Shown here one piece after another: positions 16,899 to 21,335 of a stretch of 22,137 bases of DNA. The stretch is from a virus. Positions within the stretch are counted from its first letter, which is position 1, and each line of letters begins with the position of its first letter. The notes beneath the pieces are model-generated. The model was given only the letters and a program-made list of their open reading frames with translations, was not told where the DNA came from and ran no database searches. The position numbers and the translations under genes are program-made. Where the stretch lies: IMG/VR virus record IMGVR_UViG_3300037189_001537, positions 1 through 22,137 of that record, one strand, 5' to 3'.

Positions 16899-17446
16899 AC
16901 CTTCTGAATGGCTAACTGGTAGTTCTTCAGAATTACTTTGTACTGCCCCTTGTAGGCCTTGAGAAAGGCATCTACTGCTGCGCCTACGCCAGCACCGCCA
17001 GCGTAATCGTCAAACAGCATAATGCCTTTTGGCTCCAATAATTTAAATGCAAGACAAGCATCCAGCAGCACTTCTGGTGTTTGATGGTTGCCATCCACAT
17101 AGATGAAATCAAACGTGAAATCCAAGTACACCAACTCACTCAAGGCTTCCCAAGAAGTCTTAGCAAGAACCTCAATAGCTTGGTTTTCTCCTGCTGCTTC
17201 ATCCACGTTAGAGTCAAAGGTCTTGCGTAGTTCAGAAAGGTCAAGAGAGGCGTGTTCCTCTCCTCCCTTAAAAGTATCTACGCAAACCATAGTGCCATCT
17301 TGAGCAAGCATGTTTTCCAACATCCAGCACGTTGACAGACCCTCAAAACTTCCTATCTCTAAGAATGCACTGTTCTCTGGCAGCTTGGCAGAACAAGCCT
17401 CAAAGTTAGGAATGTTTTGGCTAAACCAATCTTGTGTGAATTTCAT
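16895..17446 (-). CDS. Class I SAM-dependent methyltransferase
   Basis: A 183-residue protein of the Methyltransf_24 type. FLEIGSFEGLSTCWML (residues 28-43) is the SAM-binding loop, CVDTFKGG (55-62) holds the acidic residue that binds the ribose, FDFIYVDGNHQTPEVLLD (112-129) is the core strand with D118 and H121, and GIMLFDDYAG (141-150) is the post-core acidic motif. Such enzymes often methylate sugars or polysaccharide precursors. It is last in the leftward operon and its start overlaps the glycosyltransferase stop (ATGA), which suggests they act on the same glycan. The substrate is not known. Confidence 0.8.
   Translation of the reverse strand: MKFTQDWFSQNIPNFEACSAKLPENSAFLEIGSFEGLSTCWMLENMLAQDGTMVCVDTFKGGEEHASLDLSELRKTFDSNVDEAAGENQAIEVLAKTSWEALSELVYLDFTFDFIYVDGNHQTPEVLLDACLAFKLLEPKGIMLFDDYAGGAGVGAAVDAFLKAYKGQYKVILKNYQLAIQKV
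16902..16932. repeat. 7-bp inverted repeat near the convergence point
   Basis: TTCTGAA (16902-16908) and TTCAGAA (16926-16932) are exact inverted copies separated by 17 bases, inside the 3' end of the methyltransferase gene. On the + strand they are followed by TTACTTTG. It could help end late transcription, but the stem is A/T-rich and the loop long, so support is weak. Confidence 0.25.
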
Positions 17447-18291
17447 GGTGCTGGCAACAAGCCGCCCTCAAACAAATAGGTTCCAAAGTGGCCCAGACGT
17501 ACCCACGGCGCTGCGTATATCTTGATGCCGTTCTCTCGCGCTACCCGGCAGAAGTGATAGTCCTCTGACAACAGGCGCTCTGTACCCGGCTCAATACTGC
17601 AAGCAAAGTATTCAGTGATGCGCTCTGCTGGTGCAATAGCACTAGACAGGACAGCGACATCGTTGTTGTAGGCAGATACCTTGTTCTTCAGCTTAGTCAA
17701 TGCCTTACGCTTGATGAGCATGAATCCAGTACCACCGGCCCATATCTCTACCGGCTTGTCGATAGGCACAGTGACTGCACCTTCGTATCCCACAAGGTTA
17801 ACCACCAGCGCACCTGTACGCTTGCTGAGTTCTTGCGGCGGTACACCCTCTTGCACGGCCTTCTCTACGCCATGCCAGTTGATTTCCTTTTTAGGGTAGA
17901 TACCGCAGATGATGTCCTTGTCTGCTGCCACCATGCCAAGGATGTCGTGGGCATCAAACTTAATGTCTGCGTCAATGAACAACAGGTGCGTACACTTGGT
18001 TTTCATGAACTGGTGGGCAAGAGCATTGCGTCCACGTTGGATGAGAGACTCATTAAACATGCTGGAGAAGGACATATCCCACCCTGCATTCTTCATGACA
18101 TTAGTCATATTAATCAATGAGTTAGTGAAGTAACCTGTACACATACCTCCATACATAGGCGTAGCTACAAAGATGTGGGGCTTGACCGGCTCCTTAACTT
18201 TCTTTGCCACAACTGTAGTTGCTGTGCGTTTCTTCTTAGCAACCAGAGTAATTTCTGGTTTCTTAATCCCTACTGTTCCACCTCTTGCCAT
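17443..18291 (-). CDS. Glycosyltransferase, GT-A type
   Basis: A 282-residue protein. After a Lys-rich leader (residues 9-38: KKPEITLVAKKKRTATTVVA and following), FVATPMYGGMCTGYF starts a GT-A nucleotide-sugar fold. HLLFIDADIKFD (102-113) holds the DxD metal motif, EIWAGGTGFMLIKRKAL (182-198) the acceptor region, and SEDYHFCRVARENGIKIYAA (242-261) with LGHFG (266-270) the C-terminal ED and H-G motifs. It probably transfers a sugar to a phage or host glycan or to DNA. ATG 18291 has AAAGGA 6 bases upstream and is preferred over a frame from 18354 that lacks a ribosome site. Confidence 0.85.
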   Translation of the reverse strand: MARGGTVGIKKPEITLVAKKKRTATTVVAKKVKEPVKPHIFVATPMYGGMCTGYFTNSLINMTNVMKNAGWDMSFSSMFNESLIQRGRNALAHQFMKTKCTHLLFIDADIKFDAHDILGMVAADKDIICGIYPKKEINWHGVEKAVQEGVPPQELSKRTGALVVNLVGYEGAVTVPIDKPVEIWAGGTGFMLIKRKALTKLKNKVSAYNNDVAVLSSAIAPAERITEYFACSIEPGTERLLSEDYHFCRVARENGIKIYAAPWVRLGHFGTYLFEGGLLPAP

Positions 18292-18382: not shown

Positions 18383-18703
18383 CTATGAGATGTCCTCTAT
18401 CCTCAGGACATACTTGTTTGTCTTCGCTGACTTGCGCCAGCCCCACACTTGTATCTTCCATCCCGCTTCCCTCACTTTCGGTAATAGTTCACTAGCCATA
18501 ATCTTCTTTATCCTGTCACTCACCCCGGACGCTGTAGCCTGTACTGCCAGAGTCTCATCCCGCTTGATAGCCAATATGTCTATGAAGCCAAACAAGTCCT
18601 GTCGTATTCGTGCGTGTGGGTTCCACTTCTCTACGATAGCTACTGTGTAACCTTGCTCTCGCAAGATTGCCAGCGTCCTACTGGTGGGTGACTCCTTTGC
18701 CAT
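18383..18703 (-). CDS. PD-(D/E)XK-like nuclease
   Basis: A 106-residue protein resembling small restriction-like nucleases. E25, DLFGFIDILAI (residues 36-46, with D42) and TLAVQATAS (51-59, with Q55) give a D-(x)n-(E/Q)xT layout in place of the usual ExK; related phage proteins have this VQxT form. R64, K66 and K67, then AGWKIQVWGWRKS (80-92), complete the fold. It may cut branched or mismatched DNA during recombination. It overlaps the OB-like gene by ATGA. The catalytic Lys seems replaced, so activity needs testing. Confidence 0.6.
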   Translation of the reverse strand: MAKESPTSRTLAILREQGYTVAIVEKWNPHARIRQDLFGFIDILAIKRDETLAVQATASGVSDRIKKIMASELLPKVREAGWKIQVWGWRKSAKTNKYVLRIEDIS

Positions 18704-19011
18704 CAGAAGGGTACGTCATCGTCATCAACACGGCTGGGCTGGACATGCTTGCGGTAAGCTGGAACCACCTCGACAACTTCGTTACGCTCCTCTGCCTTCT
18801 TTCGCTTAGTCCAGTTGTCTTCCTTGAAAGAAAGCAGGGTAGTGCCTTTGGAAGTAGGGCGCTGCCAGACAGCAAACTTCAGCTTTTCGCCAGCTTTGTA
18901 GTCCATCTCTAGGACTATGAAGCCTTTGTAGTCTGGCCCTTTGTCACTCTTCTTTTCCTCTTCCCAGTAAGCCACTCCTGACCCCGGCATCTCACGATGT
19001 TGATTGCTCAT
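18703..19011 (-). CDS. OB/DUF736-like protein with SSB-type acidic tip
   Basis: A 102-residue protein. GSGVAYWEEEKKSDKGPDYK (residues 11-30) then GFIV, FAVWQRPTSKGTTLLSFK follows the pattern of the DUF736 group (N-x-K-K-S-D-x-x-P-D-Y-x-G, W-x-x-x-x-x-x-G-x-x-x-L-S). The extreme C-terminus is VDDDDVPF, matching the acidic D-D-D-I-P-F tip by which bacterial SSB proteins recruit partners. It lies between the RecT/HTH region and a nuclease, so a single-stranded-DNA-binding or partner-recruiting role in recombination is plausible. AAAGGAAAAGT precedes the ATG; the start overlaps the HTH stop (ATGA). Confidence 0.6.
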   Translation of the reverse strand: MSNQHREMPGSGVAYWEEEKKSDKGPDYKGFIVLEMDYKAGEKLKFAVWQRPTSKGTTLLSFKEDNWTKRKKAEERNEVVEVVPAYRKHVQPSRVDDDDVPF

Positions 19012-19247
19012 ACTTTTCCTTTCGTTAACGTGTAACTCGCATACTCTCTGCCATTGGCCTTAACCATGTGAGTAAAGATGTTGTATCCCTCTTTCCGCAA
19101 CACTTCTATGTGAGCAGCAAGGCGAAAACTCCCATATAAATTCAGTGCTTCCATAGGAGAGATTGCCTTGCCGCTTTCTAGGTGTCTCAGGATATTGTCA
19201 CGCTGTGTACCACTTCGGGACTTTGTGGGGGCGTACCCGGCTTTGGG
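19008..19247 (-). CDS. Helix-turn-helix domain frame without a normal start (possible RecT fusion)
   Basis: The frame opens after TAG (19248-19250) and gives 79 residues including TQRDNILRHLESGKAISPME, ALNLYGSFRLAAHIEVLRKE and GYNIFTHMVKANGREYASYT. This is the HTH_39-type winged-helix domain common beside phage recombination genes, normally a separate protein starting M-T-Q-R. Here the codon before TQRD is GGT, and no ATG, GTG or TTG occurs until ATG 19154, which would leave only 48 residues and delete the first helix. It overlaps RecT in the -1 frame and a slippery heptamer lies at its 5' limit. Options: -1 frameshift fusion, non-standard start (ATC or CTG), or a truncated 48-residue protein. 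Its stop overlaps the next start. Confidence 0.7.
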   Translation of the reverse strand, partial: PKAGYAPTKSRSGTQRDNILRHLESGKAISPMEALNLYGSFRLAAHIEVLRKEGYNIFTHMVKANGREYASYTLTKGKV

Positions 19248-20023
19248 CTAACAGACACTCCAGCAGTGACTAACATGCCCTTCATCTTGACCTTGAGCAT
19301 GTTGTCAAGAGAGTCCAGCATGTTCATGTTGCAAGCCTTGAGGCCGTCAATCTTCTCTGCTTTCAACTCTTCATCCATCTTGGCAGACTTAGTGATACGG
19401 GCCACCATAGTGACGTAAGCCTCTAGCCACTGCTCTACAGTGTGAAAGCGGTTGTAAGCCTCATCATTGCCGGGTACAAATAATTCAAAAGCCCCGTCTG
19501 GTTCTGCTAATACTTCCTCTACCATTCCCATGTCTTTAGTGGCAGGGGCTGGCTGGAAGTCCTGTACTTCCTCTGGTGTGTAGACACCCACCACGCACCC
19601 GGGGTACACAGCACGGATGCCTTCTGAGATACACCGCGCACGGAGCATGGCTCTAGGGTAGTTCTTCCAGTTGTCCTTGCTTGCAATGCCTATCTGTTTG
19701 GCATGTGTAAGAGTCCACGTTACTGCCAAGCTACCACCAGACGGATGTGAGAACGTGCCGGTAACCTCTTGGTCTGTATACACATCCCACTTCACTGAAC
19801 CACCAGCTTGCTGGAATCTAGCAAGCATGGCATCTGCTTTCAGTGCAGGACGGCCTTGGATAACGTGGTAATCACGCATAGCGATAGCAGGGTGCAGTCC
19901 TTCGCCTTGGCACAACAACATGATTGCCAATGCCTCTTGCGGGTTCTTGAACCCAAACATCTTGCTACTGGCAGCTACCTCTGCCATCTGCTGCATATCT
20001 TGATAGGGAATAATATTACTCAT
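19187..20023 (-). CDS. recT: RecT-family single-strand annealing protein
   Basis: A 278-residue protein. LLCQGEGLHPAIAMRDYHVI (residues 36-55), GRPALKADAMLARFQQAGG and YPRAMLRARCISEGIRAVYP (122-141) with VVGVYTPEEV (144-153) are the RecT core, as in many phage RecT proteins. These bind single-stranded DNA and anneal complementary strands, working with an exonuclease; here a YqaJ-like exonuclease lies two genes upstream. The last 100 residues are helical, with a Pro-rich end (VSPKPGTPPQSPEVVHSVTI). The ATG overlaps the preceding gene by 8 bases. The 3' end carries the slippery heptamer described separately. Confidence 0.9.
   Translation of the reverse strand: MSNIIPYQDMQQMAEVAASSKMFGFKNPQEALAIMLLCQGEGLHPAIAMRDYHVIQGRPALKADAMLARFQQAGGSVKWDVYTDQEVTGTFSHPSGGSLAVTWTLTHAKQIGIASKDNWKNYPRAMLRARCISEGIRAVYPGCVVGVYTPEEVQDFQPAPATKDMGMVEEVLAEPDGAFELFVPGNDEAYNRFHTVEQWLEAYVTMVARITKSAKMDEELKAEKIDGLKACNMNMLDSLDNMLKVKMKGMLVTAGVSVSPKPGTPPQSPEVVHSVTIS
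19241..19247 (-). promoter_or_regulatory. Candidate -1 frameshift heptamer C_CCA_AAG
   Basis: Read on the - strand, CCCAAAG falls in the RecT frame as C CCA AAG (last base of codon 259 plus P260 and K261). This is a canonical X_XXY_YYZ layout with AAG in the A site, the most slip-prone codon in bacteria. It lies immediately after the TAG that closes the -1 frame upstream, so a slip here fuses RecT 1-261 to 77 residues of HTH. Downstream bases can form a modest stem (19233-19236 with 19207-19210, and 19225-19227 with 19211-19213). Confidence 0.5.
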
Positions 20024-20225
20024 TTACTTTGCTCCTTACTCTTAACATTTCATCTGCTAGGCGATAGGCATCTTCTGCCTTCTGACGATAGAAACCACCA
20101 CTGGTTGCATGTACTACTTGCAGTGCTGCGATAGCAAACATATCTCGCAAGTCCATGCCCTCGCTGCTGTTAGTCAATCCAGTAGTAGGATGCTTGTGGG
20201 AAAAGGGATAGGCTTTGTCTTTCAT
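20016..20225 (-). CDS. Small conserved phage protein, function unknown
   Basis: A 69-residue protein (TGLTNSSEGMDLRDMFAIAA; LQVVHATSGGFYRQKAEDAY; RLADEMLRVR). The G-M-x-L-R-D-x-F-A-x-x-A-L-Q and A-E-D-A-Y-x-L-A-D-x-M-L patterns are common in small phage proteins of unknown role. It lies between the exonuclease (ATGA overlap) and RecT (8-base overlap), so it is probably co-translated with the recombination pair. Confidence 0.7.
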   Translation of the reverse strand: MKDKAYPFSHKHPTTGLTNSSEGMDLRDMFAIAALQVVHATSGGFYRQKAEDAYRLADEMLRVRSKVNE

Positions 20226-21118
20226 TTGATTAAGAACCTCCGTGAACCGGGCATCTCCCGCACAAACTGGCGGTAAATGTCAGGCATAGCACTTTCAAAC
20301 AACTTGGAGTCAAACTTCATAGATGCCTTGGCAGACTTCCAAGTAGCCAGCACGTTGCCATCTATAGAGGCCAAGGTTGCCTTGTCTTCCATGTAGCCCT
20401 GCACCAGCGTTTGGAACTGGTCTTCACGGGCTTCTAGAGCCTTGATTTCCTTCTTTATGGCAGATAGGTACATGACTGCTTCCTCTACGCTTGCAGAGGC
20501 TAATTTGGTAGCTTCTGAGGACACAGGGTATAGCGCCCTTGCTTGGTCAACAGATTCAGGGGGCAGAGCAGTACCAGAGACAACGTGCGCCCACAAGACT
20601 GCCATGTCCTTAATGTGGGCCTCTTTCATAGCCTCGCTAATGTCCTGACGAATAAGTACAAACTCCTGACCACCAAATAGTACGGCAAGGTACACAGTCT
20701 CACAGCCGAATACTGTGGCTTCATGCACAAGTTGAGCCATATCCGCAACTGGCATAAGTCCAGTGTCTGCGTCAAACTTAGAACGTGTAGCCGCGCTGTA
20801 GTTCTTAGCCTCGACAAGTATTGTTTTACCATTCTCTTTCCCCACAAAATCAAAGTGACTACGCAGCCATTCCTCTTTAGGGTGAGTCAGGGCATCCTCT
20901 ATCTTGTTCAACTCAACCTTTAGCTTGGATTGAGCCAGCCGCCCTATGACAGGCTCCATGATGTGACCCATCTGGACGGCTTCCACCTCTGACAAGTCAG
21001 GGCGCTCCATACGGCCTTGCTTTATAAGGATGGCTTCGTTAGCCCTTCCTTGGGCAGCCAGACGGCTATCGCCTGACCACCATGCACTGTTACGGGTTTC
21101 GGGGGAAAAGTCAGACAT
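20222..21118 (-). CDS. YqaJ/lambda-exonuclease-like recombination nuclease
   Basis: A 298-residue protein. AWWSGDSRLAAQGRANEAIL (residues 12-31), MGHIMEPVIG (50-59, E55), SHFDFVG (87-93, D90) and ILVEAKNYSA (100-109, E103-x-K105) give the PD-(D/E)XK core of the YqaJ viral recombinase family, with Q129 as a likely motif IV residue. The C-terminal 120 residues are helical. It should degrade double-stranded DNA ends from 5' to 3' to give single strands for RecT. Start 21118 is chosen because AGGAGG lies 6 bases upstream and it overlaps the preceding gene by 8 bases; an upstream start at 21133 has no such support. Confidence 0.85.
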   Translation of the reverse strand: MSDFSPETRNSAWWSGDSRLAAQGRANEAILIKQGRMERPDLSEVEAVQMGHIMEPVIGRLAQSKLKVELNKIEDALTHPKEEWLRSHFDFVGKENGKTILVEAKNYSAATRSKFDADTGLMPVADMAQLVHEATVFGCETVYLAVLFGGQEFVLIRQDISEAMKEAHIKDMAVLWAHVVSGTALPPESVDQARALYPVSSEATKLASASVEEAVMYLSAIKKEIKALEAREDQFQTLVQGYMEDKATLASIDGNVLATWKSAKASMKFDSKLFESAMPDIYRQFVREMPGSRRFLIK

Positions 21119-21335
21119 TGTTAGCCTCCTCAAAGAACAGGGCTTCTACGCCGCACATGTTGCCAGCAGCACTCATACGCATGACTTCCGCATACGGCAA
21201 GTCCTCATGCTTTTGTTTACCAGTGACTAGGGAGATGGGGTTGTTGCGTGTGCTGACAGCGCAGCGTGCGTATACATGATGTTCGTCTCCCACCTTGGGA
21301 GAGAAGTGCTTGCAATTTACACAGTATTTGGTCAT
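21111..21335 (-). CDS. Small Cys-rich (zinc-ribbon-like) protein
   Basis: A 74-residue protein (MTKYCVNCKHFSPKVGDEHH start). Cys5 and Cys8 form a CxxC, with further Cys at 25 and 61 (NMCGVEALF), enough to bind one zinc. The CxxC-K-H-F start and late C-G are typical of small phage proteins of unknown role. It is first after the likely promoter at 21378-21383. No strong ribosome site is seen (GAAAG only). Confidence 0.7.
   Translation of the reverse strand: MTKYCVNCKHFSPKVGDEHHVYARCAVSTRNNPISLVTGKQKHEDLPYAEVMRMSAAGNMCGVEALFFEEANNV
21125..21130 (-). promoter_or_regulatory. Strong ribosome binding site for the exonuclease
   Basis: AGGAGG on the - strand, 6 bases before ATG 21118. It decides that start over the in-frame ATG at 21133. 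Confidence 0.8.

Follow-up and report, generated by a model that had tools for sequence, protein, structure and literature searches.

In Escherichia coli, the dnaX frameshift gives rise to tau and gamma, two C-terminally differing subunits of an oligomeric DNA-metabolism protein; the signal comprises a heptamer and an upstream Shine-Dalgarno (SD)-like element, the shift shortens the protein, and a downstream stem-loop is present. A hairpin or pseudoknot downstream is not, however, obligatory for -1 frameshifting in bacteria. In a study that cites the stimulation of dnaX frameshifting by its SD sequence, and that treated SD-like sequences 6-17 nt upstream (the range searched) as stimulators, C_CCA_AAG combined with the IS3 pseudoknot gave 54% frameshifting in E. 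coli, the top value of all X_XXZ_ZZN heptamers tested (PMC4066793). The main review of the field, in the sections available to us, likewise rates C_CCA_AAG as highly shift-prone, and the phage uses of frameshifting that those sections describe are in tail and coat genes, with no RecT among them (PMC5009743).

Here we describe a C_CCA_AAG heptamer in a phage annealase gene. The window (the whole stretch of DNA that was analysed, 22,137 bases) encodes on its minus strand a RecT-like single-strand annealing protein of 278 aa (19187..20023), whose reading frame we call the 0 frame. The heptamer (19241..19247, minus strand) is of the X_XXY_YYZ form, lies in the 0 frame at P260-K261, and is followed by 17 further RecT codons and a TGA (19187..19240, minus strand). 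An open frame of 79 codons that encodes a helix-turn-helix (HTH) domain (19247..19008, minus strand) overlaps the end of RecT in the -1 frame. The overlap opens exactly at the heptamer, as a preliminary description of this DNA had pointed out; immediately before the heptamer is a TAG stop in the HTH frame (19250-19248, minus strand). A slip at this position would join RecT residues 1-261 to an extension of 77 codons plus stop (19008..19241, minus strand) made up of a linker and a winged HTH, and the sum of 261 and 77 agrees with the product of about 338 residues that had been anticipated. Judging from comparison of the sequences set out below, programmed -1 frameshifting at C_CCA_AAG, aided by the SD-like sequence, very probably yields both RecT (278 aa) and RecT-wHTH (338 aa), and the production of these two proteins from one gene is the most likely account of the locus. 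CCCAAAG contains no long homopolymer, a consideration against transcriptional slippage.

The assignment of the annealase rests on profile matches and on the company that the gene keeps. The window RecT matches phrog_561 (E 1.8e-23), and its match to the Pfam RecT family PF03837 (E 1.2e-4, 22.1 bits) falls just below the 24-bit cut-off; PF03837 matches 13 of 13 scanned RecT relatives (best E 1.2e-7). The closest PDB fold to the predicted model is that of lambda Red-beta (7ujl, prob 0.96), the model itself being of low confidence (pLDDT 68, pTM 0.36), and a search of PDB sequences with the RecT profile gave no match. A paired exonuclease gene, YqaJ/RecE-like, lies upstream in the same operon (20222..21133, minus strand; PF09588 E 1.1e-6, phrog_434 E 7e-42). 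Between the two is a gene for a small protein of unknown function (20016..20225, minus strand; phrog_2201 E 6.7e-11), so that the minus-strand recombination operon runs from the exonuclease through the small protein, RecT and the HTH frame to an SSB-like gene. Adjoining this operon is a gene for a glycosyltransferase-like protein (17443-18291, minus strand; phrog_1574 E 1.7e-46, with a weak Anp1 match).

The HTH frame encodes a complete conserved domain, as had been proposed. Residues 14-76 match HTH_39 (PF14090) with an E value of 5.6e-11 and 42.6 bits, above the curated cut-off of 21.3, and the extension also matches phrog_4973 (E 3.1e-16). An AlphaFold model (pLDDT 85) predicts helices at residues 15-24, 31-38 and 43-52 together with a beta wing, and the PDB folds that it matches are winged-helix regulators. 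Up to the second helix of the domain this frame has a single ATG, GTG or TTG, namely the ATG at 19152..19154 (minus strand), which encodes the M of SPMEAL; the first half of the frame contains no other ATG. In agreement with what had been noted from the letters, no such codon precedes this methionine, which on the modelled helices lies beyond the first helix and within the second. The preliminary description also had a GGT codon where related HTH proteins have their initial M, and this residue, the G of GTQR, indeed aligns with the start region of free-standing HTH_39 proteins, which begin, for example, MAQAEQIL (L303) or MSKTQQQQIL (L304). HTH_39 occurs in other contexts as well. In gp019 of Rhizobium phage RHEph01 (L307, 2051-2722) it is an in-frame C-terminal domain, at residues 154-217 of a 223-aa protein of unknown function, and in another spring-water phage, MW202722.1 (L083, 1605-1826 and 3271-4116), it is free-standing and shares an operon with an exonuclease and a RecT, being separated from the RecT.

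The arrangement seen in the window recurs among relatives. When viral contigs were scanned with RecT, 80 loci emerged; the HTH was in the -1 frame in 79 of the 79 with an HTH match, and an in-frame CCCAAAG or CCCAAAA was found in 80/80 sequences counted (window included). A second scan with an HTH alignment, which shares many contigs with the first, also returned 80 loci. All of these are -1 and carry CCCAAAG, and their RecT identity goes as low as 45%. More scans, now with distant RecTs and followed by profile classification, extended the set to 302 loci. RecT is overlapped by an HTH in -1 at 163 loci, and none of the 302 has an in-frame RecT-HTH fusion. Removal of identical junctions left 96 distinct ones (L012 and L095, from the same contig, were left out on account of an early RecT stop). 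In every one, as in the window, the HTH reads in -1 relative to RecT, and the heptamer is CCCAAAG in 90, CCCAAAA in 5 and AAAAAAG in 1. This last junction belongs to a distant relative (L299) that carries A_AAA_AAG at the equivalent place in lieu of CCCAAAR; A_AAA_AAG is a well-known slippery heptamer of E. coli. The distance from the heptamer to the RecT stop is 31-70 nt in all relatives. A heptamer and a -1 relation retained across 96 distinct junctions is, on sequence grounds, far beyond chance. These data bear out two expectations of the preliminary description, namely that relatives would conserve the heptamer (CCCAAAR in 95/96, A_AAA_AAG in the other) and would lack a start codon for the HTH (from the heptamer to GTQR the 95 CCCAAAR junctions contain neither ATG nor GTG nor TTG, GTQR not having been located in three of them), and thereby support its interpretation of the junction as a frameshift site. 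No relative was found in which RecT is followed at the same place by an HTH with an ATG start.

The same arrangement of RecT and -1 HTH is present in GenBank MW202825.1, whose RecT is ~50% identical. The annotation of that record has a truncated, separate 'helix-turn-helix domain' CDS (L081, 3442-3555) and a RecT called 'hypothetical protein', and so misses the frameshifted domain, an example of how present annotation loses the HTH. On the host side, a scan of genome contigs for a RecT/HTH pair gave only RecTs with no recognisable HTH (L164-L167), and in 399 genomes from a single bacterial order the HTH was matched twice, each time in what reads as a free-standing gene.

Substitution mapping on 61 non-redundant sequences (tree length 7.6) indicates that the heptamer is constrained beyond the needs of protein coding, as is the frame relation. 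The six positions of CCCAAA underwent zero substitutions on this tree and form the longest invariant run in the RecT gene, whereas ten other conserved proline codons of the gene each took 9-19 third-base changes. In the codon before the heptamer the amino acid varies, with 13 changes at each of the first two bases, while the third base is invariably C. We examined the stretch between the heptamer and the RecT stop in 22 independent close pairs, which differ there by 64 substitutions. Changes synonymous in the HTH frame account for 36/64 (expected 32%, p 5e-5), and changes synonymous in the RecT frame, at 16/64 (expected 29%, p 0.77), are not enriched. Purifying selection thus acts on the -1 frame immediately past the heptamer, and both GTQR and a PK..VP..SR linker are conserved in that frame. 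This enrichment, which extends from the heptamer to the RecT stop, implies that translation of the HTH frame starts at or before that stretch. Comparison among relatives establishes the signal, the frame relation, the selection on the -1 frame and the retention of the RecT stop; the ribosomal slip itself at CCCAAAG, and its rate, are inferred.

A candidate stimulator lies upstream. The SD-like GGAG (19258..19261, minus strand) is 10 nt 5' of the heptamer, and in 61 relatives the 24 nt that precede the heptamer are predicted to pair with the anti-SD at a median of -9.3 kcal/mol, as against -3.3 in control stretches. Pairing at -5 kcal/mol or better is found in 61/61 sequences, with a similar spacing to the heptamer. 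The codon for the conserved Gly upstream of the heptamer is GGA or GGG in 56/60 sequences, compared with 153/549 (28%) at nine other invariant glycines; the Fisher p of 5e-24 serves only as a guide, since the sequences are related and thus not independent. Downstream, RNAalifold on 34 junctions revealed no conserved hairpin or pseudoknot, and the best candidate, a hand-picked GTCCC/GGGAC stem, showed no covariation. MFE z-scores calculated against shuffles and synonymous recodings likewise gave no conserved downstream structure, with a slight excess over the synonymous recodings; stems confined to single clades are possible.

RecT loci with no recognisable HTH provide a further comparison, for 105/136 of these lack the heptamer as well. 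The remaining 31 have an in-frame CCCAAA, mostly CCCAAAC, so the motif also occurs outside the HTH carriers. Among HTH-less RecTs (L178-L188, L280-L301, L164, L273 and L174-L177), the in-frame motif is CCCAAA[CG], and many have GGGGAGGG ~8 nt upstream. In HTH-less loci with CCCAAA, the -1 frame past the RecT stop resembles an eroded HTH helix (SGFHRIGQINIRGFNELR, VYGLQHIGGLILKLRK). Substitutions after the RecT stop in this clade fall mostly at third positions of the -1 frame, a pattern that the overlap does not have, and the post-stop stretch may represent a leader peptide or the remains of an HTH.

The gene that follows the HTH bears on what a frameshift would be for. The SSB-like gene (18703..19011, minus strand) has an ATG that overlaps the HTH stop (ATGA); its product has no Pfam match and ends in DDDDVPF. 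In nearly all relatives the next, SSB-like gene starts -11 to +13 nt from the HTH stop, and a [D/E/S][V/I]PF tip ends most products of this gene. The DDDDVPF end is similar to the acidic tip that bacterial SSB carries, and most relatives keep such a tip. The close spacing raises the possibility that a real frameshift serves mainly to deliver ribosomes to the start of the SSB-like gene, or to regulate its translation, with the HTH secondary. We give this a small but real chance: the HTH forms a complete, conserved domain whose RLAAHIE residues are invariant, and is not filler, and many of the SSB-like genes have ribosome-binding sites of the AAAGGA type.

That the HTH is instead a separate protein, its translation re-initiated or coupled with no frameshift at or just past the RecT stop or at ATG 19154, appears to us improbable. 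Free-standing HTH_39 genes are known elsewhere, and in many relatives a TTG or ATG overlaps or adjoins the RecT stop (HTH codons +2, +5 and +8; TTGA, ATGA and CTGA overlaps). No start is common to the relatives, however, and some of them (L004 and L015, for example) have no ATG, GTG or TTG among the first 20 codons near the start of the domain; moreover, starts of this kind would cut into predicted helix 1. The selection within the overlap, which reaches GTQR and the linker upstream of any such start, and the lack of start codons together speak against a start at ATG 19154 and against the RecT stop as a point of re-initiation, and re-initiation would leave the invariant CCCAAA unexplained. As for ATG 19154 in particular, which had been named as a start that would count against a frameshift, initiation there is unlikely because this ATG is missing from many relatives and selection on the HTH frame extends upstream of it; we rejected it as the HTH start on its position inside helix 2 and its absence from those relatives.

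Very unlikely indeed is a non-standard start codon in the overlap for which the GGAG would serve as an ordinary ribosome-binding site. The SD-like sequence is conserved ~10 nt upstream of the heptamer, as this account would have it, but the codons at the proper distance are always CCC AAA, and near-cognate codons (NTG or ATN) occur rarely ahead of GTQR, with none common to most junctions (5 ATC/ATA in 95). Practically no weight attaches to sequencing or assembly error, or to the decay of a pseudogene, as the source of the broken frame. Although the window is a single metagenomic virus contig, an identical frame relation holds in 96 distinct junctions, drawn from many samples and independent metagenomes, and in MW202825.1; this recurrence refutes the idea and excludes the missing or extra base that had been raised as a concern, and purifying selection acts on the -1 frame.

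If programmed frameshifting operates as we propose, the majority of ribosomes would read through the heptamer and end RecT 17 codons on, at 278 aa, and a fraction would pass into the -1 frame by re-pairing at CCC AAA and append the 77 residues that carry the winged HTH, giving the 338-aa RecT-wHTH. The ratio of RecT-wHTH to RecT would then be fixed by the frameshift. A minority of wHTH-bearing subunits might give a mixed annealase filament a hold on dsDNA, perhaps a phage-specific one; alternatively, RecT-wHTH might control its own operon. The modelled domain and analogy with described proteins suggest these roles. We consider a duplex hold because proteins of the RecT/Red-beta type oligomerise on DNA, and Red-beta oligomerises and binds annealing intermediates but does not bind preformed dsDNA (PMC9772228). 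In its specific form, the idea that a frameshift-made minority tethers mixed RecT/RecT-wHTH filaments to particular phage dsDNA (the origin, the ends or the phage's own operator) as the bulk anneals single strands is a tentative one, somewhat short of an even chance. If the frameshift is real, there would be a translational dial on a class of protein used for recombineering, and the need for a set ratio of a duplex-binding annealase subunit would become testable.

Our search of openly licensed papers turned up no account of an annealase or RecT gene that undergoes frameshifting; papers containing both terms concern tail genes or other matters. The locus nonetheless resembles several described systems in part. 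In the lambda G/GT tail assembly chaperone and its tailed-phage relatives, as described in the main review, a phage gene likewise has an X_XXY_YYZ heptamer near its 3' end and makes a minority product with an extra C-terminal domain and no obligatory downstream structure (PMC5009743); unlike that tail gene, the gene described here is a recombination gene with C_CCA_AAG, an SD-like element and an added DNA-binding domain. The Ig-like extensions of phage coat and tail proteins, also covered there, are likewise optional C-terminal domains reached by frameshifting (PMC5009743), but they join an Ig fold to structural proteins, whereas here a winged HTH would be joined to an annealase. The dnaX frameshift differs in its shortened product and its stem-loop, since here RecT would be lengthened and a conserved stem was not found. 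Firmicutes RecT, Sak4 and Erf annealases likewise carry an additional C-terminal DNA-binding HTH (PMC8093625); no frameshift is mentioned in that paper, and in the locus described here it is the -1 frame that encodes the HTH. Tailed phages are known to use programmed frameshifting for structural proteins; its signature is found here in a DNA recombination gene of freshwater phages, where it would supply an annealase from an oligomer-forming family with a DNA-binding domain.
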